Made by a program: the position numbers and the translations under genes. The notes beneath the pieces are model-generated. The model had not been told where the DNA came from. It saw only the letters and a program-made list of their open reading frames with translations, and did not search any database. 23,013 nt of DNA from a virus, in IMG/VR virus record IMGVR_UViG_3300023118_000027, positions 1 through 23,013 of that record; one strand, written 5' to 3'. Shown here piece after piece: positions 129-22,496 of this stretch (position 1 is the stretch's first letter; each line of letters starts with the position of its first letter).

Positions 129-3100
129 TTATCGTCCAAGGATACCCTTGGCACTATCCATTGCACCACTGAACATACGTTCACCAGAACGAGCAGCAGG
201 AATAAACCCACGCTCTTCATTGCTTTGGTATGATCTGAATGTTGCACGACGGAGGATCTCCCCGGCACGCTTTCTCTGTTGCTTGGATACCTGATCCTTT
301 GTGACAGACTTCATGAGTTCCGACGCGAAGTCAGGGTCCTCAACCATCATATTCACAAGGCTCTTCATGTTGGCTTCAACTTCTTCAAGACTTTCTACAG
401 TCATTGGAGTGATCAAACTACTAGTCGTAGCAGACTTTCGATTGAGGCGGCCAAGAAGAGTGTGGATCAAAGTAGATACAGCGGCCTGTGGATTTTCGGA
501 CCTCAATGTCCTTCTACCAAAGAGTACACTCTTGTCGACCTGAGGGGTCTTCTTAGAGATACGCTGGTATGTGTCAGACAAGTCTTCAAGGGCATCCACA
601 ACTTCCGGCTTATCCCTGAATACTTCACGCATCACGGCAAAGTCATGACCTTCGTCGTCAAACATCTTGTCAATCTGACGGTCATTAGATCTCTTGGCAA
701 AACCCAAATCAGGTGCCACCATATCCATCTTAGAGTTCCCAGTGATCTTACCCTTGAGCCAACGGACATAGGTGCCTTGGGCTGCGTCACGAATGACCTT
801 CCCACTTTCACCCATCTCGTCGACCTCATCCATAAGACCCTTGATCTTCGTCTCACCGTTTTTACCGGCAAAGAGTTGTTCAAGATTGCGACCTGCGTCA
901 GAACCCTCGACAGGTACAAGACCCTTACGGGACTTTGTCACAAAGTTATGGAAGATGGACTGTTGTGCATTAGCAGTGAGTTCGTCTGCAGCCTCTTTCA
1001 TCTCCTTGGCGACAGCATCTTTAGCCTTTGCGTCTGCACCAAGAGTATTGATCTTGGCTTCCATATCCTTGAAGACCTTGACCGAGGGATGATTAGTCCT
1101 TTCGAGGTTCTCAATGATATTGCTCAGGCTACCACGAAGAGTACTGATGCTTTCGGCACCACCCTTCGCAAGACTGTCAGAGAGGTTATTGACGGCCTTA
1201 CCGAGGTAGAGGTTATCAATGTCAGGACGGATATCTTGTCCACCCTCAGAAGCGGCATGTTCGATGTCTCTCGCATATGTGTTACGTTCTGTCGTAGACA
1301 GGTTGTTATTGACATAACGAGACACACCGATGTCGTAGTCACCCTTGCCCCTTGGAATACGAGACTCCGAAGAACGGATGATCTGCTCACCATCATCAGC
1401 GACACTCTGCAAAGAACTGTTCTTGTTCCCGTAGAATGCGTTCTGATACTTCACGTACTTGTCCTTAGCATCTTCGACCATCTTCTTGATGTTATCGTCT
1501 CCACCCTGAGCCACATGATCCAGCTGGGTTTCGTTGATGTTGTCACGAAGTTTATAGAGGGTCTGTAGACGTCCCTGAGGGTCACCTGACTTCTGTGCAG
1601 CAGAAATCTGATCAGAGATTTGATTACGGACGTTGTTGTAGATGTTACCAATACTAGGATCGGCTTCTACACTTTCGGCTATCTGCTTCAAGAAGGGGTC
1701 ATGGAGGGTAGTCTTAGGACTAGGTGGACCCATACCAAGAGGCATGTCACCCGGACCTACATCACCAGTCTCCTTAATGATCTGCAGGAGTGATACAGGA
1801 TCACCCTCGGCACCAGTGTCTGCGATAGCCTTATATGCGTCATCACTTTCAGTCTTAAGTTTAGTCTGTGCAGCAATGAGCTTAGGATTGATGTTTTCAG
1901 ACACAACCTTCTGGAGTTCAGTGTTGGAACCAAGGGTGTTGTTAGCCTTACGAAGTTCCATACCAAACTCAGGGTCGTTAGACATAGCAGTGTCAGCCTT
2001 GATCTTGGCTTCGTCAGCAGCCTTACGGGCGGCATCGGCTTCGATCTGAGGTGCTTCCATGTCGTTGATGTTCTTTTGACCAGCCACCTGAGCAGCCTCC
2101 TTCTGAGCACCAACAAGACCGTCTTTATGGACACTATTGGTGGCATCGTCAAGAAGCCCTTGTAGTTCCTTCACACCCTTAGAAGATGTTCCGGCAGAAC
2201 CCATGGCAGTACGAAGTTTATACAATCTCATAGAGGCATCAGCGGCCTGGGCATCGACCCAATTATCGAAAGCCTTAGGATCCTTAGCATTCATGATTGC
2301 CTTCTGATCGGCATATGCGATAGAGAAGTAATCCTTTGCAGCTTCGTTGAATGAAGAAGCCGTGTCCTGAGGGATTGCACGACCTGCACCCATGAGCTGC
2401 ATATTCTTCGTACCATGACGGTTGACCGTATCAGCCATAAGCTTCATACGGTGGATCGCCTGTTCAGGAGAAGACGTCTGAATACCCGGATCGAGCCAAG
2501 TCATAAACTTGATACCAGCAGCCTTGTCACCGAGACGCATCCCAGGGATTTTGTTGATGTCAAAACCGATGGGCTTCATATTACGGAGACCACCGAATGC
2601 AGGAGTAATCAACTTGTCTACGGCTGCGTTACGGATTGCACCAAAGGTAGAGAGGGTAGCACTCATGAGAGGACCGTCTGCAAGGAAAGACATGTCGTCT
2701 GCACGTTCCTTAGACATACCCCAGTTCTTCTCGAAGTAAGAAGACGGGATTACACCACCAGACGCATCCTCAGGGGATACGACACCTTCTGCAAGACTGA
2801 GATTACCCACACGGGCAGCCGTAGCCGCAGTCTGCATACCAGGAGTAGAACGGACACCAAGACCGAAACCGGCGATGACACCGTTGGCAGCTTCGATGGA
2901 AGCCTTCTTTGCGAGTGCTTCATTACCCGTGGCTGCGAGTGTCTTTGCGTAAGTCTCACGAATGGCAGTCTTAGCCTCTGGAGAGATAGCACGGGCAACC
3001 TTCCCGAATAGAGCACCACCTCCACCCATGATAAGCTTGTCTGCCGCGACACCACCTACTGCGTAAGTAGCAACGTCAGTCGCAAACTTCTCGCCCATAT

Positions 3101-3932
3101 GATTCGGGACAGTCTCTGGAAGAGCCTTACCAATGGCACCTTCGCCAGTGATCTTACCCTCAGTGACAAAATCACCGACACCACCAGCGACGTTCTGTAG
3201 AACCTGATAGGCCATGCGCTGGAGGGCATTGGCTTCTGGAGGATCTACGATATAACGAGTGGACACCATAGAAGGATTGTCATCACTCTCTGGAAGATTG
3301 GCGTCGTAGTTAGGGTTGTTCTCACGCTTCTCCTGAGTCCTGATAGGGAAGCCAAACAGAGAGCTCTCTTCACCAGTAGAAGAAAACTTCTGGAGCTTCT
3401 CTTCGGAACGCTGGCTCGAAAGGGTCGCTATGTCGTCAGGCTGGAACGCCTTGTCATAGAGTTCACCACCAAAACCACCAAGGGTTCTACTGGCAATCTG
3501 TCGTCCCATACCACCTTCATACTCACGGAGCTTCTCATACTTAGGGTCATTTTCGATACGACCATAGAGATCAGAGTTGCTCTGTAGAGGATTGAGAGCC
3601 TCAGGTGCAGGAGCACTTTCGAAGGCACCAGCCTCTCTGTCGGCATTCAACTGGGCATTCAGGTCTTCACCCTGAGGGGCGTCGGCAGGAACGACAGCAT
3701 TATGATCCAACTGAGACACAGGAGTTCCAGGCATAGCCTCACCCTCTGCCTGACCGTTAGGCGCCAAGTTGGGAGGAATGATTTCCCCTGTACCAGTGGC
3801 ATAACCGTCAAGAGCTGGTTCCTCAGGCGTTTCCACCTGAGGAGTCACAGTCGGTTGTGCGTATTTGGCAAAGGGGTTCTCTGGCGCTATCGCCTCTGTA
3901 GGCTGGGCATACTTAGCGAATGGATTGGCCAT
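129..3932 (-). CDS. Large internal virion (ejection-type) protein, 1267 aa
   Basis: This is the last and largest gene of the late block. A large, mostly helical, Ala/Lys/Asp-rich protein placed last after the tail genes fits the internal or ejected proteins of podoviruses, comparable in size and position to T7 gp16. I see no convincing lytic transglycosylase motif. The N-terminus carries two copies of NPFAKYAQPT (residues 3-12 and 19-28), followed by a Pro/Glu-rich linker. A Gly/Ala-rich, mildly hydrophobic stretch lies around residues 240-390, and long coiled-coil-like helices around 620-1010. The ATG at 3932 follows AGGAAAG and lies three bases after the stop of the 659-aa gene. The stop at 129-131 abuts the terminator. 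Ejection-type role is inferred from size, position and composition. Confidence 0.75.
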   Translation of the reverse strand: MANPFAKYAQPTEAIAPENPFAKYAQPTVTPQVETPEEPALDGYATGTGEIIPPNLAPNGQAEGEAMPGTPVSQLDHNAVVPADAPQGEDLNAQLNADREAGAFESAPAPEALNPLQSNSDLYGRIENDPKYEKLREYEGGMGRQIASRTLGGFGGELYDKAFQPDDIATLSSQRSEEKLQKFSSTGEESSLFGFPIRTQEKRENNPNYDANLPESDDNPSMVSTRYIVDPPEANALQRMAYQVLQNVAGGVGDFVTEGKITGEGAIGKALPETVPNHMGEKFATDVATYAVGGVAADKLIMGGGGALFGKVARAISPEAKTAIRETYAKTLAATGNEALAKKASIEAANGVIAGFGLGVRSTPGMQTAATAARVGNLSLAEGVVSPEDASGGVIPSSYFEKNWGMSKERADDMSFLADGPLMSATLSTFGAIRNAAVDKLITPAFGGLRNMKPIGFDINKIPGMRLGDKAAGIKFMTWLDPGIQTSSPEQAIHRMKLMADTVNRHGTKNMQLMGAGRAIPQDTASSFNEAAKDYFSIAYADQKAIMNAKDPKAFDNWVDAQAADASMRLYKLRTAMGSAGTSSKGVKELQGLLDDATNSVHKDGLVGAQKEAAQVAGQKNINDMEAPQIEADAARKAADEAKIKADTAMSNDPEFGMELRKANNTLGSNTELQKVVSENINPKLIAAQTKLKTESDDAYKAIADTGAEGDPVSLLQIIKETGDVGPGDMPLGMGPPSPKTTLHDPFLKQIAESVEADPSIGNIYNNVRNQISDQISAAQKSGDPQGRLQTLYKLRDNINETQLDHVAQGGDDNIKKMVEDAKDKYVKYQNAFYGNKNSSLQSVADDGEQIIRSSESRIPRGKGDYDIGVSRYVNNNLSTTERNTYARDIEHAASEGGQDIRPDIDNLYLGKAVNNLSDSLAKGGAESISTLRGSLSNIIENLERTNHPSVKVFKDMEAKINTLGADAKAKDAVAKEMKEAADELTANAQQSIFHNFVTKSRKGLVPVEGSDAGRNLEQLFAGKNGETKIKGLMDEVDEMGESGKVIRDAAQGTYVRWLKGKITGNSKMDMVAPDLGFAKRSNDRQIDKMFDDEGHDFAVMREVFRDKPEVVDALEDLSDTYQRISKKTPQVDKSVLFGRRTLRSENPQAAVSTLIHTLLGRLNRKSATTSSLITPMTVESLEEVEANMKSLVNMMVEDPDFASELMKSVTKDQVSKQQRKRAGEILRRATFRSYQSNEERGFIPAARSGERMFSGAMDSAKGILGR
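3849..3926 (-). repeat. Duplicated NPFAKYAQPT motif coded by fully different synonymous codons
   Basis: Residues 3-12 (bases 3897-3926) and 19-28 (bases 3849-3878) of the 1267-aa protein are the same ten amino acids. Copy 1 reads AAT CCA TTC GCT AAG TAT and so on; copy 2 reads AAC CCC TTT GCC AAA TAC and so on. All ten codons differ, each only at the third base. N-terminal tandem motifs of the NPF-x-x-F/Y type are, as I recall, common in phage internal proteins, so this is likely a short binding or packaging tag. Confidence 0.9.
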
Positions 3933-3935
3933 TAA

Positions 3936-5915
3936 TTACTTTCCTTCTAGTGCGCGTTGAGCTGCCCCTGGTCCAAAGACTTCGTCGAAAGCCTTACGAT
4001 TGTCAGGGGTGTTGGCAGCCTTAAGATCTTTAATTGCATCAGGCACCACTGGAGCGTAGGTCTGATTGTTCACAGGCTGTACCTGAGGTTGAACATTTGC
4101 AGGTGGCTGGATTTCAACCGGTGCTGCATATGGCTTGTCAAGGCTCCTGAGATATTCAAGCTGAGGCGATCCCTCACCATACAGATTGATGACACTCTGT
4201 TCGATACGCTCTGGACGAAGACCAGTCTTGAACGGCTTACCGTCAGGACCTGCATGTCTACGTTCAAACTCTTCGACCTGAGCATTCTTACCGAGGACGT
4301 ACTGTTCAGACTTAAGCTTGTTGAAGCTCTCCTTGACCATACCCTGAATAGTCGGAAGGACCAGTTCAGGAGTCTTACCATCGGCAATGATCTTCTGTGC
4401 ACGATCGAAGTCGGCATTAGAGACCTTACCGTCAGTCGCCATGGACTGGGCAAGATGGTTGGCTGTGGAGAGGAGCAGAGCGTTGTACTTGGCAGCGTTG
4501 ATAGCCGACTGGTCGTTACCAGCACCAATGCTATTACTGTTACCAAGGAACTTCTTGACTGCTTCTTCTTGCTTGGCGACGAGAGCCTCGTACTGACCTG
4601 GATTCTTATCCTTGTCTACGACAGCAATCTGCTTCTGGAAGTCTTCAATGGCAGACATAGCAGCCTGGGCTTCACCCTTAAGGTCCATGACAGTACCAAG
4701 ACCCTTAGACACCATAGAGGCGGCACGAGGATCGTCATGAAGCAACTGAGCCATCTGTTGACCAGAATCGAGTGCACCTGCGAACTGTACGAACTTGTTG
4801 TCGTATTCGGTACTGGCTTTGCCATATGTCTGGACAAGACCGTTATACTGATCACGATCTGGCTTATCCATAGCAATGACACGGCCACCTGTGACAATCA
4901 AAGGCTTACCATCAGGGCTAGAAGTCGTATCCATAAGATGTTCACCATCCTGACGACCGAAGAACTGACGAGGACCATTTGGAGTTTCTTGGAAGTAGGT
5001 CATACCACCAGTACCCTCTGCCTTAGCCTTGGCTTCTGCCTCCATGACACGAGCCGTCTGAATAGCCTTGATGTTATTCTCGGCAGTACGACGAGCGGCT
5101 GGATCATTCCCATCATTGGCACGCTGTAGGTTAGAGAGTTCCTGTTCCAAAGAACCAACCTTGATTGTGTCTGTAGGCTGATACTTGTAGGCAGTACCAG
5201 AGAGGTCGATACCCTTGAGGTCAGGACCTTCGACAGGTTCCAGAAGACCAGGATTGACACCCTTGATACGTTCTCTCGTCGCAGCATCGAGACCCATTTC
5301 TTCACCAAGATCTTTCTTCTTGGCAGGAACAGGCATACCTGTGATTGGATTCTGTGCATCAGTGGCACCCGGAGTAACACCCGGAGGAAGCTTGAGTTCC
5401 TGTGTAGGCTGTACGTAATTCGGATCCTTGACAAGCTGCTTCTTTTCGATCATGTCTTGGATCTTATCGACAGTCACACCAGACTTACGAAGCTTGAGGA
5501 TAGTACCGGCAAGACCACTGTCACCACCAGAAAGAACACGAGCAGACTCGACCATTTCTTTGTCTTTGGCAACTGCGGCTTCACGAGTCTCACGATAGTT
5601 CTGTAGACCCTGATAGGTATACTGATAGTCTACATTCTTACGGGCGTTCTCTGCGGCGGTCTTTTGGTCTGTGAGCTGTTGGGCACGCTGCTCTGCATCC
5701 TTCTTCTCCTGATAGGCTCGATCATCAAGACGGATACCGGCAGTATACTTACGGGTATCTTCGGTATCAGCCTTCTGATCTGCACGAGACCTCAGATACA
5801 TCTTCTCTTGGAGAGCAAGTGCGTCCTGCTTGTCCTTTTCTTTTTGTGCACGATCCTCAGACCGTTCACGGGCACGAATAAAGCCCTGAGCAAAACCTGA
5901 TGCAAATGTTTCCAT
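3936..5915 (-). CDS. Internal virion protein, helical, 659 aa
   Basis: The product is hydrophilic and mainly helical. Residues about 10-125 are rich in Arg, Lys, Glu and Gln with coiled-coil character. A proline-rich linker spans about 168-200. A helical region around 470-515 contains NHLAQSMATDGKVSNADF, a pattern I associate with large internal proteins of podoviruses. The C-terminal part (about 600-640) is rich in Pro, Gln and Val. The start at 5915 has a good AAGGAG site that sits in the end of the preceding gene, and the gene ends three bases before the 1267-aa gene. Its place between other internal-type proteins supports a role in the capsid core or ejection machinery. No enzymatic motif was recognised. 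Confidence 0.7.
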   Translation of the reverse strand: METFASGFAQGFIRARERSEDRAQKEKDKQDALALQEKMYLRSRADQKADTEDTRKYTAGIRLDDRAYQEKKDAEQRAQQLTDQKTAAENARKNVDYQYTYQGLQNYRETREAAVAKDKEMVESARVLSGGDSGLAGTILKLRKSGVTVDKIQDMIEKKQLVKDPNYVQPTQELKLPPGVTPGATDAQNPITGMPVPAKKKDLGEEMGLDAATRERIKGVNPGLLEPVEGPDLKGIDLSGTAYKYQPTDTIKVGSLEQELSNLQRANDGNDPAARRTAENNIKAIQTARVMEAEAKAKAEGTGGMTYFQETPNGPRQFFGRQDGEHLMDTTSSPDGKPLIVTGGRVIAMDKPDRDQYNGLVQTYGKASTEYDNKFVQFAGALDSGQQMAQLLHDDPRAASMVSKGLGTVMDLKGEAQAAMSAIEDFQKQIAVVDKDKNPGQYEALVAKQEEAVKKFLGNSNSIGAGNDQSAINAAKYNALLLSTANHLAQSMATDGKVSNADFDRAQKIIADGKTPELVLPTIQGMVKESFNKLKSEQYVLGKNAQVEEFERRHAGPDGKPFKTGLRPERIEQSVINLYGEGSPQLEYLRSLDKPYAAPVEIQPPANVQPQVQPVNNQTYAPVVPDAIKDLKAANTPDNRKAFDEVFGPGAAQRALEGK

Positions 5916-5917
5916 GA

Positions 5918-6475
5918 TTATTTCTGCTCCTTAGGAGTTTCCTGTGGCTGACCCGTAGGACCGCCAGTCATAGCCATAAAGCCTTCCTGTTGTAGGGGCT
6001 TAGTCTCTTGTGCACCCTGCTTCTCTTCGACGGCTGCCTTGACATCCGGAAGCTGCTCATCAAGAAGTTTGAAGTCACCATTCGGTGTACGAAGGTCCTG
6101 TTCTCCCTTGAAGAATGCACCAGTAGTAATCTCTTCGTCGTCTTCGATACCCAGAGTGTAGTCGACACCAAAGCCGACACAAATGAGTTCGATCATACGA
6201 GTCAGAGGACCACCGAGGAGTAGAGTAAAGTCTACCGTCCAGAGACCAGCACCCACACCCTGAGTAAGAAGCATGTCTGCAATCTTATAGAGCGGGATAC
6301 CTAGTTCAGCCATGTTGAGAATACCGTTGGCCGACTGGATCTTGTGGATCTTCCTGACAAGAAAGTCTAGGCAATCATTGACATCAGTAAACTGAGGAGG
6401 CTGCCTCCAAGGATAGTTCTTGGTGTCAGAGGTATAGTTTTCACCCGGAATAGGGCCAGCATTCAATTGTGCCAT
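5918..6475 (-). CDS. Conserved phage structural-type protein, 185 aa
   Basis: The N-terminus contains PIPGENYTSD and NYPWRQPPQFTD, followed by a largely hydrophobic middle (residues about 50-105) with GVGAGLWTVDFTLLLGGPLT, then an acidic and Gln/Pro-rich tail. From memory, small proteins with this 'PWxxPPxFTD' opening and hydrophobic middle occur among structural genes of marine and soil phages, without a defined function. The start codon overlaps the stop of the 63-aa gene by one base (TAATG). The hydrophobic middle could be buried in a protein core or interact with a membrane during DNA entry; both are guesses. Confidence 0.6.
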   Translation of the reverse strand: MAQLNAGPIPGENYTSDTKNYPWRQPPQFTDVNDCLDFLVRKIHKIQSANGILNMAELGIPLYKIADMLLTQGVGAGLWTVDFTLLLGGPLTRMIELICVGFGVDYTLGIEDDEEITTGAFFKGEQDLRTPNGDFKLLDEQLPDVKAAVEEKQGAQETKPLQQEGFMAMTGGPTGQPQETPKEQK

Positions 6476-6682: not shown

Positions 6683-8323
6683 TTAACTGAAAATACCGCT
6701 CATCATGCTTGTGAAACTATCGGAACCCACGAATGCACCGGCGATAGAGCCGAGAGCAGCCATGTTGGCACCCTTAGTAGAAGCCTTGATTTGGAGTTTA
6801 GCCATTGCCACTGCTGCGTCTCGATCCTTCTGGCTTTCAGAAGACTTAAACGCATAATCGAGTAGGGCGTCTGAACGATCCCAAAGCTGATTAAGTGCGG
6901 CAGTCGAGATATCGACATTGTTCTTTACGTCGGTAGTCGCGGCTTCGAAGTTCTGTTGGTCGTCTTGCAGCTGGATCTGTTGTCTCCAGTTTGCGTTGGC
7001 GACAGCAATGTTGTACTGCTGGTCCGAGTAGAACTTCTGACGACTGTCTTCCATCGTAGAATTGAACTTGTCTGCATCCAACGTCTGACTAGAGTTGAAC
7101 TGAGAAATCTGTGTGTTCAATGAGGCATAGAACTTATCGACGTCATTCTGGCTCTGTGCCATGAACTGGTCCTTGACGTTCTGCGCATTGGCATCTGTAA
7201 GGATACTCTGGATGCGTGCCTGATTGTTAATTACGTTAGCCTGTTGCTCATTGTCTAGGTTCTTAAGGTCCATGGCAAGAAAAGACTGAGCGTTCTGTAC
7301 GGCTGCAGTCATTCGATTGTCTAGGTTTGTCTGTTCGAACTTAGCGAGAACGTTAGCCGCATTGATCGTAGACTGCTGCTTGTTGTCGAGGTTCTTGACA
7401 GTCAGTGTCTGGAAGAATGTAGCGTCAGACTGGGCAATCGGTAGAGATGCTTCGAGAAGGGCCTGAGACATGGCAGCTGTAGCAGCAGTACCAGTCATAC
7501 CACCAAAGGCAGCAATCTTAGATACGTTACGTGCGGTCGCCGCTGCCCACGAGGGGATCTTAGGTTCACCAGTATTAGGGTCTACAAACTGCTGCTGCAG
7601 AATGGCAAGCTGACCCTCTAGGGTGGCCTTACTGTCGACGTAGTTACCATCGCCTAGCTGTTGGGCAAGAAGCTTACCAGCGGCCGTGCTCGTGTCAATG
7701 ACGTTAGACATGTCCTGATGGGCATACTGCTGTAGTGCAGTACCGAGCTCATTCTTAGTCCCGTCTTTGTTTGTACCAGTGGCGATACCAGTCGTATCAG
7801 CCTGAGGGACATCCTTGATCTGAGCCTTGTCAGAGACAGTACCCTGAGCCGCTTCCATCTGATTGTCTTTGACCTTGTCTTCGGTCTTAGTGACGTCATA
7901 GTCATGGGCGGCAGTAGGATCAACCTGATCGATATTGGTGTTAGTCACCGTAGGGGTGTTACCAAGACCAAGCTTAGGGTCGTTACCATCTACCTGAGCA
8001 GCAGTACCAGTCTGTCCCTGAGTAGCCTGTACGGCAGAAGTACCGTTTGCACCAGAGATAAAGTTGTCTGGATTATCAGGAACCAACTGCCCTGCATAAG
8101 AAGTGGCATTGGCTGGATTGACGTCAGCACCAGGTGTATACGTGGCATCGGCCTTAGCCTTGGCAGCAGAGTCGGCTGCATTCAACCAAGTACCACCTTT
8201 AGACTGATAGTCAGCCCAAGCTCTGGCACCTTCGTGATCCTTGTCGGCTTTATCACCCTGTTGAATTCCAGGGTTGGCAGCCATATAACCCTGCCAGTCA
8301 AAATTGTCCTGAGTATAAGCCAT
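6683..8323 (-). CDS. Internal virion protein with 22-residue repeats, 546 aa
   Basis: The N-terminal 200 residues are Asp/Thr/Ala/Gly-rich and probably extended. From about 200 onward the protein is helical and rich in Gln, Asn and Ala. Three copies of (K/T)NLDN lie exactly 22 residues apart (310, 332, 354), consistent with an 11-residue (hendecad) coiled-coil period. A weakly hydrophobic segment MAALGSIAGAFVGS lies near the C-terminus (521-534). The start overlaps the o-spanin stop by one base (TAATG) after AAGGAAA. The composition and its position right after the lysis genes, leading the run of internal proteins, suggest an ejected or core protein of the virion. No catalytic motif was seen. 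Confidence 0.7.
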   Translation of the reverse strand: MAYTQDNFDWQGYMAANPGIQQGDKADKDHEGARAWADYQSKGGTWLNAADSAAKAKADATYTPGADVNPANATSYAGQLVPDNPDNFISGANGTSAVQATQGQTGTAAQVDGNDPKLGLGNTPTVTNTNIDQVDPTAAHDYDVTKTEDKVKDNQMEAAQGTVSDKAQIKDVPQADTTGIATGTNKDGTKNELGTALQQYAHQDMSNVIDTSTAAGKLLAQQLGDGNYVDSKATLEGQLAILQQQFVDPNTGEPKIPSWAAATARNVSKIAAFGGMTGTAATAAMSQALLEASLPIAQSDATFFQTLTVKNLDNKQQSTINAANVLAKFEQTNLDNRMTAAVQNAQSFLAMDLKNLDNEQQANVINNQARIQSILTDANAQNVKDQFMAQSQNDVDKFYASLNTQISQFNSSQTLDADKFNSTMEDSRQKFYSDQQYNIAVANANWRQQIQLQDDQQNFEAATTDVKNNVDISTAALNQLWDRSDALLDYAFKSSESQKDRDAAVAMAKLQIKASTKGANMAALGSIAGAFVGSDSFTSMMSGIFS

Positions 8324-8613
8324 TATTTAGTTTCCTTCTGAATTCGTCCGTCCCTCAATAGGATATATTCGACAAATGCTTTATGTCTGTAGTAGCAATC
8401 AATGAGTGAAACCCGATCAGAAATCCAAAGCTTTTCCACCTGCTTCTGAGTCAATGGACCTATGACATCCACAGGGATGTTACAGTCTTTCATCATCTCT
8501 TGTTCAGCGGGGGTTAGTTGGACTGGTCCGAGGGATATTAACTTTGTTGATCCGCACGCTGCTAGGAGCACTGATAGCAGGCTTATTAGCATCAGGGTCT
8601 TTATCTGCTTCAC
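8323..8613 (-). CDS. o-spanin (Rz1-like outer-membrane lipoprotein)
   Basis: A basic start is followed by a hydrophobic signal and the lipobox LLAAC, giving lipidation at Cys20 and a mature lipoprotein of 77 residues. Spanin outer subunits sit in the inner leaflet of the outer membrane and join with the inner-membrane spanin to fuse the membranes in the last step of lysis. The gene starts inside the i-spanin gene in another frame and runs past its end, a classic Rz/Rz1 overlap. The mature part is longer than the lambda Rz1 and has a helical, non-proline-rich tail with Cys44 and Cys73, so it may form disulfide-linked dimers. Lipobox plus overlap make the call firm. Confidence 0.85.
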   Translation of the reverse strand: MKQIKTLMLISLLSVLLAACGSTKLISLGPVQLTPAEQEMMKDCNIPVDVIGPLTQKQVEKLWISDRVSLIDCYYRHKAFVEYILLRDGRIQKETK

Positions 8614-8872
8614 TTTCGAGCTCCTTGACTTTGGTGTCTAGCTCTTGCTTGAGCTTTGTGATTTCTTTGATACGTTCTGCTTCTTTGTCTTTGGCATACT
8701 GGTTGGCTGCAGCAATACGATTTCTCTGCTCGGTCACTGCCTGAGTAACCTCTAGCTGATAGGCGTAGTACTTACCGATACCTAATTTGTATCCAAGGTA
8801 GATGCCCCCCAGAAATAGGAGGACACCACCAAGGGCGAAATAAGTCTCTTTCTTAAAGAGGAGTTGTATCAT
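8504..8872 (-). CDS. i-spanin (Rz-like inner-membrane protein)
   Basis: It has one N-terminal membrane segment (residues about 11-30, YFALGGVLLFLGGIYLGYKL), a periplasmic coiled coil rich in Glu, Lys, Ala and Gln (about 38-92), and a Pro/Ser/Asn-rich C-terminal tail. This is the standard layout of the inner-membrane spanin, which pairs with the lipoprotein encoded in its 3' half. The start overlaps the end of the endolysin gene by 20 bases, as usual for coupled lysis genes. Its upstream site (AAAAGG) is modest, so translation is probably coupled to the endolysin. Length (122 aa) is normal for the group. Confidence 0.85.
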   Translation of the reverse strand: MIQLLFKKETYFALGGVLLFLGGIYLGYKLGIGKYYAYQLEVTQAVTEQRNRIAAANQYAKDKEAERIKEITKLKQELDTKVKELESEADKDPDANKPAISAPSSVRINKVNIPRTSPTNPR

Positions 8873-9320
8873 TGCAGAACGCCTTTTCTTTTACTCGACG
8901 ATTAGTCAATCCAGCCCAGATCTTACCACCGGCTCTGTTAAACGACATAAGTGTTTCACATGCCTGAGAGTAGAGCTTAAGGTTGAGCTTGTTTGGAAGA
9001 GATGATTTGCAGAAGCCTCCGACGCCAATATTGTAGGTCAGAGATACCATCGCTATGTAAGGTCTGATAGGGATACCATCGGGATCCTTTAGACACTTCC
9101 TCATTCCCTCTTCGTGTTCCTGAATTGCAGCAATGAACTTCTCGTCGCATTCCTTCTTGGTGAATGTCATCCCCTTCTTGATACCCTTCGTCAACCCCTG
9201 ACACGCAGTCCACACACCGATCACGTCTTGGTAGGCCGTCGCTCTGTATCCTTCGAAGCCACCGATCAAGCTGACAGCCACCAATGCAGCAATCGAACCG
9301 TTCCTTAGTCTGCTCGCCAT
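8853..9320 (-). CDS. Endolysin: GH24 lysozyme with probable SAR anchor
   Basis: This muramidase cuts the glycan strands of peptidoglycan at lysis. The canonical E-x8-D-x5-T catalytic triad is complete: Glu23, Asp32 and Thr38 in FEGYRATAYQDVIGVWTACQ. Residues 8-22 are weakly hydrophobic and rich in Ala, Gly, Val and Ser, typical of a signal-arrest-release segment that lets the host Sec system export the enzyme in an inactive membrane-tethered form. There are six cysteines (40, 58, 76, 104, 121, 149), as in SAR endolysins that are activated by disulfide changes. The start at 9320 has a strong AAGGAG and lies inside the holin frame. Length (155 aa) is normal. Confidence 0.92.
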   Translation of the reverse strand: MASRLRNGSIAALVAVSLIGGFEGYRATAYQDVIGVWTACQGLTKGIKKGMTFTKKECDEKFIAAIQEHEEGMRKCLKDPDGIPIRPYIAMVSLTYNIGVGGFCKSSLPNKLNLKLYSQACETLMSFNRAGGKIWAGLTNRRVKEKAFCNDTTPL

Positions 9321-20213: not shown

Positions 20214-22496
20214 TTAGTAAGAGCGTTGACCCCAACCACCTTGAGTGGTCTTATCTTTGTCAGTGCTCTTGGTTGATGCAGACGTTGCGGCTGTGCTCAT
20301 CGAGCTCATCAGTCCGGCTGATCTGCTACTACCACTATTAGTATTGCTAGCCGTGTCATTCGAAGATCTGGCAAAACCAGTTCCAGAAGTGTTGGCGGTA
20401 GGCGATGTACTACTAGTGGCAGGTCTATTAGCCACCGTCTCGGTACGACCAGAGAACGAAGGCAAACTGTCATCAGCCATCTTACCTGCGAATGTAGGTG
20501 AGGTAATTGCGGCTGTATTAAATACTGTATGCGGCTGGACGGACGTAGGGGCTTTTGCCGTATACTCTGGAAGAGTACCAAACGTGTGAGGTCCAATGGT
20601 TGTAGGATTCTCCATCTTTGCAGACCAAGAAGGATTGACCTTCTGGTTGTGGTAAGAAGTGAAGCCTAGATTTTGTGTAGGATCGCTGACATACTTACTG
20701 ACGATACTATCGAAGGTAGTCTTGTCTGCGTCATAATTCTTTGTGGCCGTATTGGCGGCTGCAGGATTGTTCCAAGTCGAGAACTGATTGGGTGCCTGAA
20801 TGGCTCCGGTGACAGACCCGTACTTAGATACTCTGTTTTCGATAGAAGAGAGAATACCCTGTGCTTCTTTTTGTCCTTCTGGTGTCGAGAGGTCTGTCTG
20901 ACTTCTGTCGATCTCACCGGCAAGTGTCTTACCCATGAGTCCACGTTCTTCGTCAGTCAGTCCCTTGAACCGATCAGGGTTGACAGTAGTCTGTGCCACA
21001 GCAGCGTCATACGAGGGCAGAGAAGACTTCTTAGGACCGTTAGCAAAGCCACCTACCTGTCTGTCTCCGTAATCCTGTCCGGCCATCTCTGGACCCTGTG
21101 TAGGATCGTCAAAGCCACCTGCAGGACGTTCCTGAGGGGTAGGGGCATTCTCTATGTCATAGTACTGAGAAGGCATGACACCGTTTGCTCTGGACTGATC
21201 GAGGGTACTACCAATCTCTTTACCGAAGGAGGCCCACTGGGGTCCTGCTCCAGGATGAGACGCAAGGTCCATCGTATCCATATGCATCGTCTTGTCACCC
21301 ATGTATTCCTTACCCATCCCGAAGTTACCTCCGTAGCGGGCAGCCATACCTTGTGCGACGTCTGCAATGGCCTGTCGATCCTGAGGATTGTTTAGGCTTA
21401 GGGGACGTCCCTGAGGGTCACGAATATCTAGGTCGGCAGCAGTACCTTCTGGATGCCTGTACTTAGTACCGACAGGAGAACGTCCTTCTGGTTCCTGACC
21501 AGATGTGACATGGACTGTATAGCCAGATCCGAGTACGTCAGTCACGACGTCAGAGACCTTAGAACCGATACCCGAAGAAGGGATCTCAGAGCGACCTGCC
21601 TTATCGAGGTCATAGGCGACTTTAGCCATGTCTCTCGTAGGAAGATCAGGATCGTCTGACGGAGCAAAGTCTGCAAGACCTAGACCATGATAGGCCAGAG
21701 ACTGAGGAGAGACAGCACCCTTTACAGGAGACGTCTTGCCCATTGGGACAGAAGGTCTCTCAGAAGGAGTCGGAAGATCAAGAGCACCAAGGGGAGACTT
21801 TTCAAGGGTCGCCTTCTTGTCTGTCTTGAAGTCTTTAAGATTCTGCTGCTTCTCTTCTCTAGTAGCCTCATGAAGACCACCTGCCAACATACCCCTTGTA
21901 CGGGCTTCGTCAGGAGTCATCGTCGTACGCTTCTTAGAGTCTTGTGCGTCTAGACCGACTGCATAAGTATTAGGATTGTTTTCAAACTGGACGTCACCGA
22001 CATAGCCCTTACGATCTTTCATGGCTCCACCGATGGAAGACATCAGACCCTTTTCTTCAAGACCGAGATACTCACGAGCCTTATTGGTACTATGTGTGTT
22101 ACCGGCGTTGATCGCCATGCTGACACCCTTGGCTGCCATACCGAGAGGACCCGGTAGGATTGCTGCCATTAGACCAAGACCTTTTGGCTTAGAGGTGTAA
22201 CCGAAGTTGTTAGAGGCATCCGTCGAACGGTCACTATTAAAGTTTCCCGATGGATCTCCATTACCTTGGTCACGATACCTCTGCCAAAAGGGTTCTGGTT
22301 CTTCTGTGTCGATACCTGCGTCTACAGTCGTATTAGAATAACTCTTAGTGTTGGACGGTTGCCCATTCTGCCAGTCATCTACGATCTGATAGCCCTCTGC
22401 ACTCGGCAAAGGATCACCTGTATTCGCATCGATGTATTCAACAACCTGATTGCCACGGACATCAGTAGATACGTTTCTAATAGCTATCTTATCCAT
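20214..22496 (-). CDS. Two-domain peptidoglycan hydrolase of the virion (M15-like plus SleB-like), 760 aa
   Basis: Two cell-wall domains can be read. Residues about 325-410 hold HPEGTAADLDI (His348, Asp355) and MHMD (His405, Asp407), the zinc-ligand spacing style of M15-type D,D-peptidases. Residues about 508-625 hold the SleB/hydrolase-2 pattern: a candidate catalytic Glu528 in KTLAGEID, then SSIENRVSKYGSV, APNQFSTWNNP and GFTSYHN. A mildly hydrophobic stretch lies at 106-135 (GLGLMAAILPGPLGMAAKGV), and a Ser/Thr/Asn-rich tail runs from 690. The gene sits between the portal-side and scaffold genes, far from the lysis set, so the protein is probably packaged and helps DNA entry by cutting the wall. 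ATG 22496 follows GAGGG. Confidence 0.72.
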   Translation of the reverse strand: MDKIAIRNVSTDVRGNQVVEYIDANTGDPLPSAEGYQIVDDWQNGQPSNTKSYSNTTVDAGIDTEEPEPFWQRYRDQGNGDPSGNFNSDRSTDASNNFGYTSKPKGLGLMAAILPGPLGMAAKGVSMAINAGNTHSTNKAREYLGLEEKGLMSSIGGAMKDRKGYVGDVQFENNPNTYAVGLDAQDSKKRTTMTPDEARTRGMLAGGLHEATREEKQQNLKDFKTDKKATLEKSPLGALDLPTPSERPSVPMGKTSPVKGAVSPQSLAYHGLGLADFAPSDDPDLPTRDMAKVAYDLDKAGRSEIPSSGIGSKVSDVVTDVLGSGYTVHVTSGQEPEGRSPVGTKYRHPEGTAADLDIRDPQGRPLSLNNPQDRQAIADVAQGMAARYGGNFGMGKEYMGDKTMHMDTMDLASHPGAGPQWASFGKEIGSTLDQSRANGVMPSQYYDIENAPTPQERPAGGFDDPTQGPEMAGQDYGDRQVGGFANGPKKSSLPSYDAAVAQTTVNPDRFKGLTDEERGLMGKTLAGEIDRSQTDLSTPEGQKEAQGILSSIENRVSKYGSVTGAIQAPNQFSTWNNPAAANTATKNYDADKTTFDSIVSKYVSDPTQNLGFTSYHNQKVNPSWSAKMENPTTIGPHTFGTLPEYTAKAPTSVQPHTVFNTAAITSPTFAGKMADDSLPSFSGRTETVANRPATSSTSPTANTSGTGFARSSNDTASNTNSGSSRSAGLMSSMSTAATSASTKSTDKDKTTQGGWGQRSY

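Follow-up and report, generated by a model that had tools for sequence, protein, structure and literature searches.

Why does a large phage protein begin with the same ten residues twice, each time written in different codons? The question is raised by a 1267-aa protein, P0001, encoded at 129–3932 on the − strand of the window, which is the whole stretch of viral DNA analysed here (23,013 nt). The N-terminus of P0001 reads MANPFAKYAQPTEAIAPENPFAKYAQPTVTPQ. The decapeptide NPFAKYAQPT occupies residues 3–12 (copy 1, 3897–3926, − strand) and again residues 19–28 (copy 2, 3849–3878, − strand), which places two tags within residues 1–40, and the ten codons of copy 2 are synonymous to those of copy 1. 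An earlier note had reported this repeat, with ten of ten codon pairs differing at the third base alone; the peptide is exact in the ORF translation and the codon comparison is exact as well. Judged from sequence comparison, the peptide repeat is far beyond chance, because relatives of P0001 and hundreds of unrelated phage proteins place two motifs in the same manner.

The late gene block of the window is located on the − strand. It encodes a capsid protein (PHROG 267), an SU10-type adaptor, a tail fibre with a collar domain and an endolysin, and is completed by genes for proteins of 546, 185, 659 and 1267 aa. Downstream of the capsid, adaptor, tail fibre and lysis genes, the last three follow a small–medium–large order (185, 659 and 1267 aa), which is also found in most tagged loci among the matches listed. 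The 185-aa protein (5918–6475, − strand) is the first of the three and takes the place of T7 gp14. The 659-aa protein P0002 (3936–5915, − strand), directly upstream of P0001, takes that of T7 gp15 or the octameric ejection protein. P0001, the largest and last, is placed by synteny at T7 gp16 or the tetrameric ejection protein. Searches of Pfam, PHROGs and the PDB gave no match for P0001 or P0002, nor any similarity to known ejection proteins; the names gp16-like and gp15-like accordingly refer to position only, as does the equivalence of all three proteins to gp14, gp15 and gp16. Three bases separate the P0002 stop codon from the P0001 start, and the two genes are in frame across that stop codon. 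The 185-aa protein is homologous to the gene product two genes upstream of the tag in loci L107 (77% identity), L139 (36%) and L162 (26%), and 36% identity was found between P0002 and the protein encoded directly upstream of the tagged gene in L107. Two further features of the window were observed. At 45–120, just past the end of the 1267-aa gene, an inverted repeat and the T run after it likely form the terminator of the late block. A 760-aa protein encoded upstream of the capsid gene (20214–22496, − strand) has, close to its C-terminus, a match to the Cell Wall Hydrolase family (PF07486, E = 3e-6), which is unusual for this position.

P0001 is about 45% identical to proteins of the Rhizobium phages RHph_I3_11, RHph_N3_13 and RHph_N3_19 (68 kb), in each of which the relative is the largest and last late gene, and 39% identical over 1179 residues to the protein of L107. 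The tags are NPFARFKP and NPFLKFKP in I3_11 and N3_13, FPWEEGY and NPWDEGY in N3_19, and NPFDQFD, twice, in L107. When the N-termini of these homologues were scored for copy number, two copies were found in four of four, with the second neither lost nor freely variable. The proposal that the peptide is selected twice within one protein is upheld by this retention and by the concerted change of the copies described below.

The tandem N-terminal tag Nx[FYW][D/A]x[FY] is carried by more than 200 phage proteins of great diversity. IMG/VR was scanned twice at the DNA level for two tag motifs 12–42 bases apart, which gave at least 239 stretches. Among the matches listed, the gap was a multiple of three in 242 of 245, the first tag was situated no more than 10 residues from the first ATG in 215 of 236, and the proteins behind the tag formed at least 59 clusters without detectable homology between them. 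Domains found in some tagged proteins include SLT transglycosylase, DarB-like, virion RNA polymerase, DNA transfer and DNA ejection protein; the number of tag copies can also be one, three or four. Within a protein, the copies agree at positions 4, 5 and 7 in 93, 80 and 85% of the clusters, compared to 56, 34 and 50% between proteins (permutation p ≤ 0.0005; values for the matches listed). Since the agreement of the copies exceeds that between proteins, both copies change together. The first tag pattern occurred in 32 stretches of 257 Gb of bacterial and archaeal contigs, about ten of which resemble the same kind of tagged gene, and tagged prophages among these contigs belong to Pseudomonadota and Verrucomicrobiota. 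Few named phages were matched by tblastn with short or full tagged proteins.

The possibility that a phage equips several cargo proteins with the tag was rejected, as the loci examined show no convincing second tagged ORF apart from a membrane-protein ORF in L138. This 376-aa ORF stands beside the tagged ejection gene (L138:6402–7532, − strand, and 7666–9291, + strand). Its product has a zinc-ribbon-like start, hydrophobic segments and two of the same tags (NPFAQFVKPQEKKEENPFAQFVQ), which are part of an inverted repeat of 75 nt (97%). A membrane decoy excluding related phages is one possibility, an invertible segment another.

The codon divergence between the copies needs to be considered separately from the peptide. 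From the codon usage of P0001, about 5 of 10 codon differences are expected; the observed 10 of 10 has a probability of 4.4e-4, or of 1.0e-3 with the codon usage of the 13 late genes of the window, and is mildly improbable in itself. The earlier note had considered selection against a recombinogenic repeat. Applied to P0001, this reading, in which a recombination-prone direct repeat is selected against separately from the function of the peptide, draws on these p values (4e-4 to 1e-3) and on the rare codons AAA, CAA, CCC and CCG in copy 2. The trend in 119 other tagged proteins is, however, the opposite: among the matches listed, the same codon is used in 532 of 874 identical residue pairs, against 463.5 expected (z = +4.9), and only one other pair with a run of at least six residues has all codons different, where 0.57 are expected. 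A slight excess of common codons is the pattern of duplicates of varied age. In the relative I3_11, the codons for N, P, F and the final P are common to both copies, and with about 120 pairs surveyed, one case such as P0001 is expected per roughly twenty surveys. Avoidance of repeated DNA as a property of the class is thus ruled out by the codon test in the 119 proteins listed, and as a general rule it had to be given up. The full divergence is peculiar to P0001, an outlier with respect to the tagged class, for which we regard selection against the repeat as rather unlikely, though worth keeping in mind; duplication age, chance after saturation or selection against slippage may each account for it. 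A relative close to this phage and including the N-terminus was not found.

As the dock of the tag, the portal, scaffold or capsid protein had been suggested. The evidence points instead to the C-terminus of the protein encoded directly upstream. A BLAST search with P0002 revealed that, besides the homologue in L107, the last 30–80 residues alone match, in otherwise unrelated upstream proteins. The C-terminal consensus of these is AAIxxLKxNPxxxxxFDxKYGxGAAxxxLG or variants of it, often FxxKYGYLPEG, and the upstream gene nearly always ends in FDx(K/IV)(Y/F)GxGAA. Inspection of the directly upstream gene in 159 tagged loci allowed the core [FY]xxx[YFH][GDK] to be placed in 147 of the 159 C-termini (matches listed). 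P0002 itself ends in AFDEVFGPGAAQRALEGK, in agreement with FDxx[YF]GxGAA. Its proposed dock comprises residues 626–659 (DAIKDLKAANTPDNRKAFDEVFGPGAAQRALEGK; 3939–4040, − strand) and matches C-termini upstream of many unrelated tagged loci; the dock core FDEVFG (3972–3989, − strand) includes V646 and F647, the two residues whose variation goes with that of tag positions 4 and 7.

The association was also examined in reverse. Two scans by the C-terminal motif alone, unselected for the tag, led to 97 usable new loci, and in nearly all of them a tag starts the downstream gene. Two copies were again the commonest number, with one copy in 17 loci and three copies in 4. New tag shapes were encountered in this set, namely NFFDQFD, NVFDQFD, NYFDKYD, NRFAKYV, NPYAQF and PPWE. 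Neither the tag nor the dock motif matched an entry in Pfam, PHROGs or the PDB. Tag and motif are adjacent on the same strand in 159 of 162 combinations, and two of the other three resemble chance matches. In L138, tag and dock are 6.2 kb apart with other genes between them, and their types still match (n = 1).

Tag and core covary at specific sites. Among the matches listed, D at tag position 4 was combined with K in the core in 87 cases and with another residue in 2, whereas A was combined with K in 0 and with another residue in 55. With one pair taken from each of 51 clusters, the median p value of Fisher's test was about 8e-9 (matches listed). Among 216 unique pairs, the core has K for every one of the 114 tags with D at both position 4 and position 7, and lacks it for 101 of the 102 tags of other types; the sole exception is a 60-codon spurious ORF in L011 and not a tagged gene. 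Mixed tags of the form NPFAxFD occur in three clusters (L076, L190, L209), all with [WY]Y cores. Of 29 C-terminal positions, core positions 4 and 5 reach z values of 8–12 for mutual information with positions 4 and 7 of the tag, and the other 27 stay at or below 3.8. Tag position 5 covaries with no position of the C-terminus. The tree of tagged bodies in the largest cluster (cluster 0) implies no fewer than 13 switches of tag type; the core follows the tag in 9.7 of 10 independent phylogenetic pairs and does the opposite in 0 (p = 0.002). The window agrees with this rule, its A...A tag being paired with a VF core, and so do I3_11 (FDQQFG), L107 (KY) and the Shewanella phage ZP9 (KY).

Covariation that is confined to two residues, chemically complementary and recurrent has direct contact as its simplest cause, and we consider such contact between tag and dock likely. 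The idea of a short functional tag is thereby strengthened: by its pattern of variation the peptide behaves like a short docking tag, and it is probably that of a phage ejection protein which binds the C-terminus of the upstream protein. In the mechanism that we propose, P0001 would be the large ejection protein, whose N-terminus offers two equivalent tags of the form Nx[FYW]-x4-x-[FY]-x7. The gp15-like medium ejection protein would provide, at its very C-terminal end, a small helical motif for each tag to plug into, with the dock end AAIxxLKxNPxxxxxFDx-K/V-Y/F-GxGAAxxxLG; tag positions 4 and 7 would then lie opposite the residue pair that precedes the conserved glycine. The putative pairing classes are D...D with KY, A...A/V with [IVTQ]F and A...D with [WY]Y; in the window, NPFAKYA would pair with FDEVFG. 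With two tags, one large protein could hold two medium ones, by which eight docks would be filled. That this 4:8 stoichiometry is the reason for the two copies is a plausible suggestion by analogy, at somewhat less than even chances.

The pairing might direct how the internal core is assembled, keep the proteins joined in the trans-envelope channel once they have been ejected, or do both. In T7, the gp16 N-terminus acts as a tape organising the C-terminal regions of gp15 after ejection (PMC8954989), and the contact may accordingly serve the head, the channel or both. A role confined to the time after ejection, in the channel or with a host partner and not in core assembly within the head, would be compatible with this precedent, since the same contact could work mainly in the periplasm, and with tagged prophages in both Pseudomonadota and Verrucomicrobiota. 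A host partner, on the other hand, would not covary with a neighbouring phage protein, and we judge this restriction to be unlikely. Still less probable, though the chief competing explanation, is that tag and C-terminal motif are linked without contact, being inherited or swapped as one DNA cassette at the gene boundary. The near-constant adjacency of the two and the 13 or more type switches on the cluster 0 body tree are what cassette swaps would give. A swapped cassette, however, would covary at all variable positions, and core positions 4 and 5 alone do so, with tag position 5 covarying with none. The changes are furthermore chemically complementary (acid with K, acid lost with K lost), mixed tags pair with mixed cores in three clusters, and the single non-adjacent pair (L138) matches as well. 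It is very improbable that the peptide is a loading tag for the portal, scaffold or capsid and that the neighbour's C-terminal motif binds this same third protein, which could then select both motifs and for which the portal contacts of the T7 core via gp14 and gp6.7 (PMC11784390) would be a precedent, since the tag–motif coupling is near perfect, residue-specific and most simply explained by direct contact, and since the N-terminal tag is found on one ORF per locus where a common cargo dock might serve several.

The preferred docking of the tag on the C-terminus of the upstream protein was also modelled with AlphaFold, using the natural in-frame read-through from dock to tags, with 48 further loci read likewise as alignment. 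The dock was predicted as three helices (pLDDT 82–85), with values of about 54 and 71 for the tag blocks. In the control with the N-terminus alone, the tag blocks reached 85 and 77, which is higher than with the dock; the comparison carries no weight for or against docking. Foldseek with the predicted model returned no similar structure.

The closest known counterpart by gene order is the gp14/gp15/gp16 core and DNA ejectosome of T7, which is likewise encoded by three consecutive late genes of rising size past the tail genes (PMC8954989, PMC11784390). A four-fold gp16 ring sits on an eight-fold gp15 ring in T7 (PMC11784390), and a tetramer on an octamer of ejection proteins in PhiM1 (PMC11440229); both arrangements would fit two tags per large protein. 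In contrast to T7, no similarity of P0001 and P0002 to gp16 and gp15 could be detected at the sequence level, and a lytic transglycosylase domain was not found in P0001. The available portions of the T7 papers mention neither a tandem NPF tag nor an FDxxYG C-terminus (PMC8954989, PMC11784390), and that of the PhiM1 paper describes polar contacts between both proteins and mentions no N-terminal tag (PMC11440229). In ZP9 (OR636717), gp12 begins with MANPFDQFDAQQENPFDQFD and the preceding gene ends with FRAKYGYLPEGV, obeying the combination of D...D with KY. The tag of gp12 is thus of the D type, and its body is not recognisably related to that of P0001. Some tagged proteins match DarB-like, ddrB-ParB, RadC, methyltransferase or virion RNA polymerase domains, as do polyvalent proteins, in the description of which the NPF tag is not mentioned (PMC5512222). 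No domain was found in P0001, which thus differs from polyvalent proteins, with their at least two effector domains per chain. Eukaryotic EH domains bind a short linear NPF motif. This system resembles ours in using a short NPF-containing linear motif in tandem, and differs in that the dock proposed here is a C-terminal helical motif without structural match.

The proposed pairing bears on the question of how the ejection proteins of podoviruses find one another although their sequences are extremely divergent; a review describes these proteins as mosaic and rapidly diverged (PMC8954989). We tentatively suggest, while regarding it as the less probable outcome, a general docking code of short-tailed phages, in which matching tandem tags and C-terminal cups form specificity classes, the code selects the protein that is loaded and ejected, and two tags solve the 8-to-4 mismatch. 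The classes would comprise DxxD/KY, AxxA/[IV]F and AxxD/[WY]Y, as well as differently shaped tags that pair with C-termini of other kinds, and very different large proteins could plug into the same core. If true, a seven-residue tag with a two-position code would make it possible to recognise the medium and the large ejection protein in hundreds of phage genomes that lack annotation, to predict fitting partners and to explain the two copies per large protein; the tag would also be a short peptide testable as a loading signal in laboratory phages. The ejection machine is of a known kind, and the docking code appears to be new. The open-access literature searched yielded no description of the tag or code; one in subscription journals is possible.

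The tags of L041, L043, L080, L122, L137 and RHph_N3_19 pair with other C-termini. NPFDEF[RK] tags were observed in L041, L043 and L080, where the upstream protein ends in ..ALKPGTVFIDPQGVERIR or similar and not in FDxxYG; these loci perhaps represent another tag/dock class. L122 and L137 have NPFAKYGG or NPFAEFGG tags with a different type of upstream C-terminus, in which NG...I occurs, and perhaps form a further class. In RHph_N3_19 (L005:4178–9717), the tags FPWEEGY and NPWDEGY are W-shaped and the upstream protein ends in ..IYGGPDGKKFEYLGGPVNDPKSYKEVK. Along with the differently shaped tags, the C-terminal motif is absent there as well, and compared to the relative I3_11, tag and dock seem to have been replaced together. 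Other starts were noticed in two named phages. The untagged DNA injection protein of ct7QV12 (L276:7808–10392) begins with a FEITAPDGKTYEVTGPEG module, and its neighbour is without the C-terminal motif. A 3782-aa protein of vB_Pae_CF24a (L281:2707–14055) begins with a different tandem-looking motif, WGENDKIVD and FGANDEVV.
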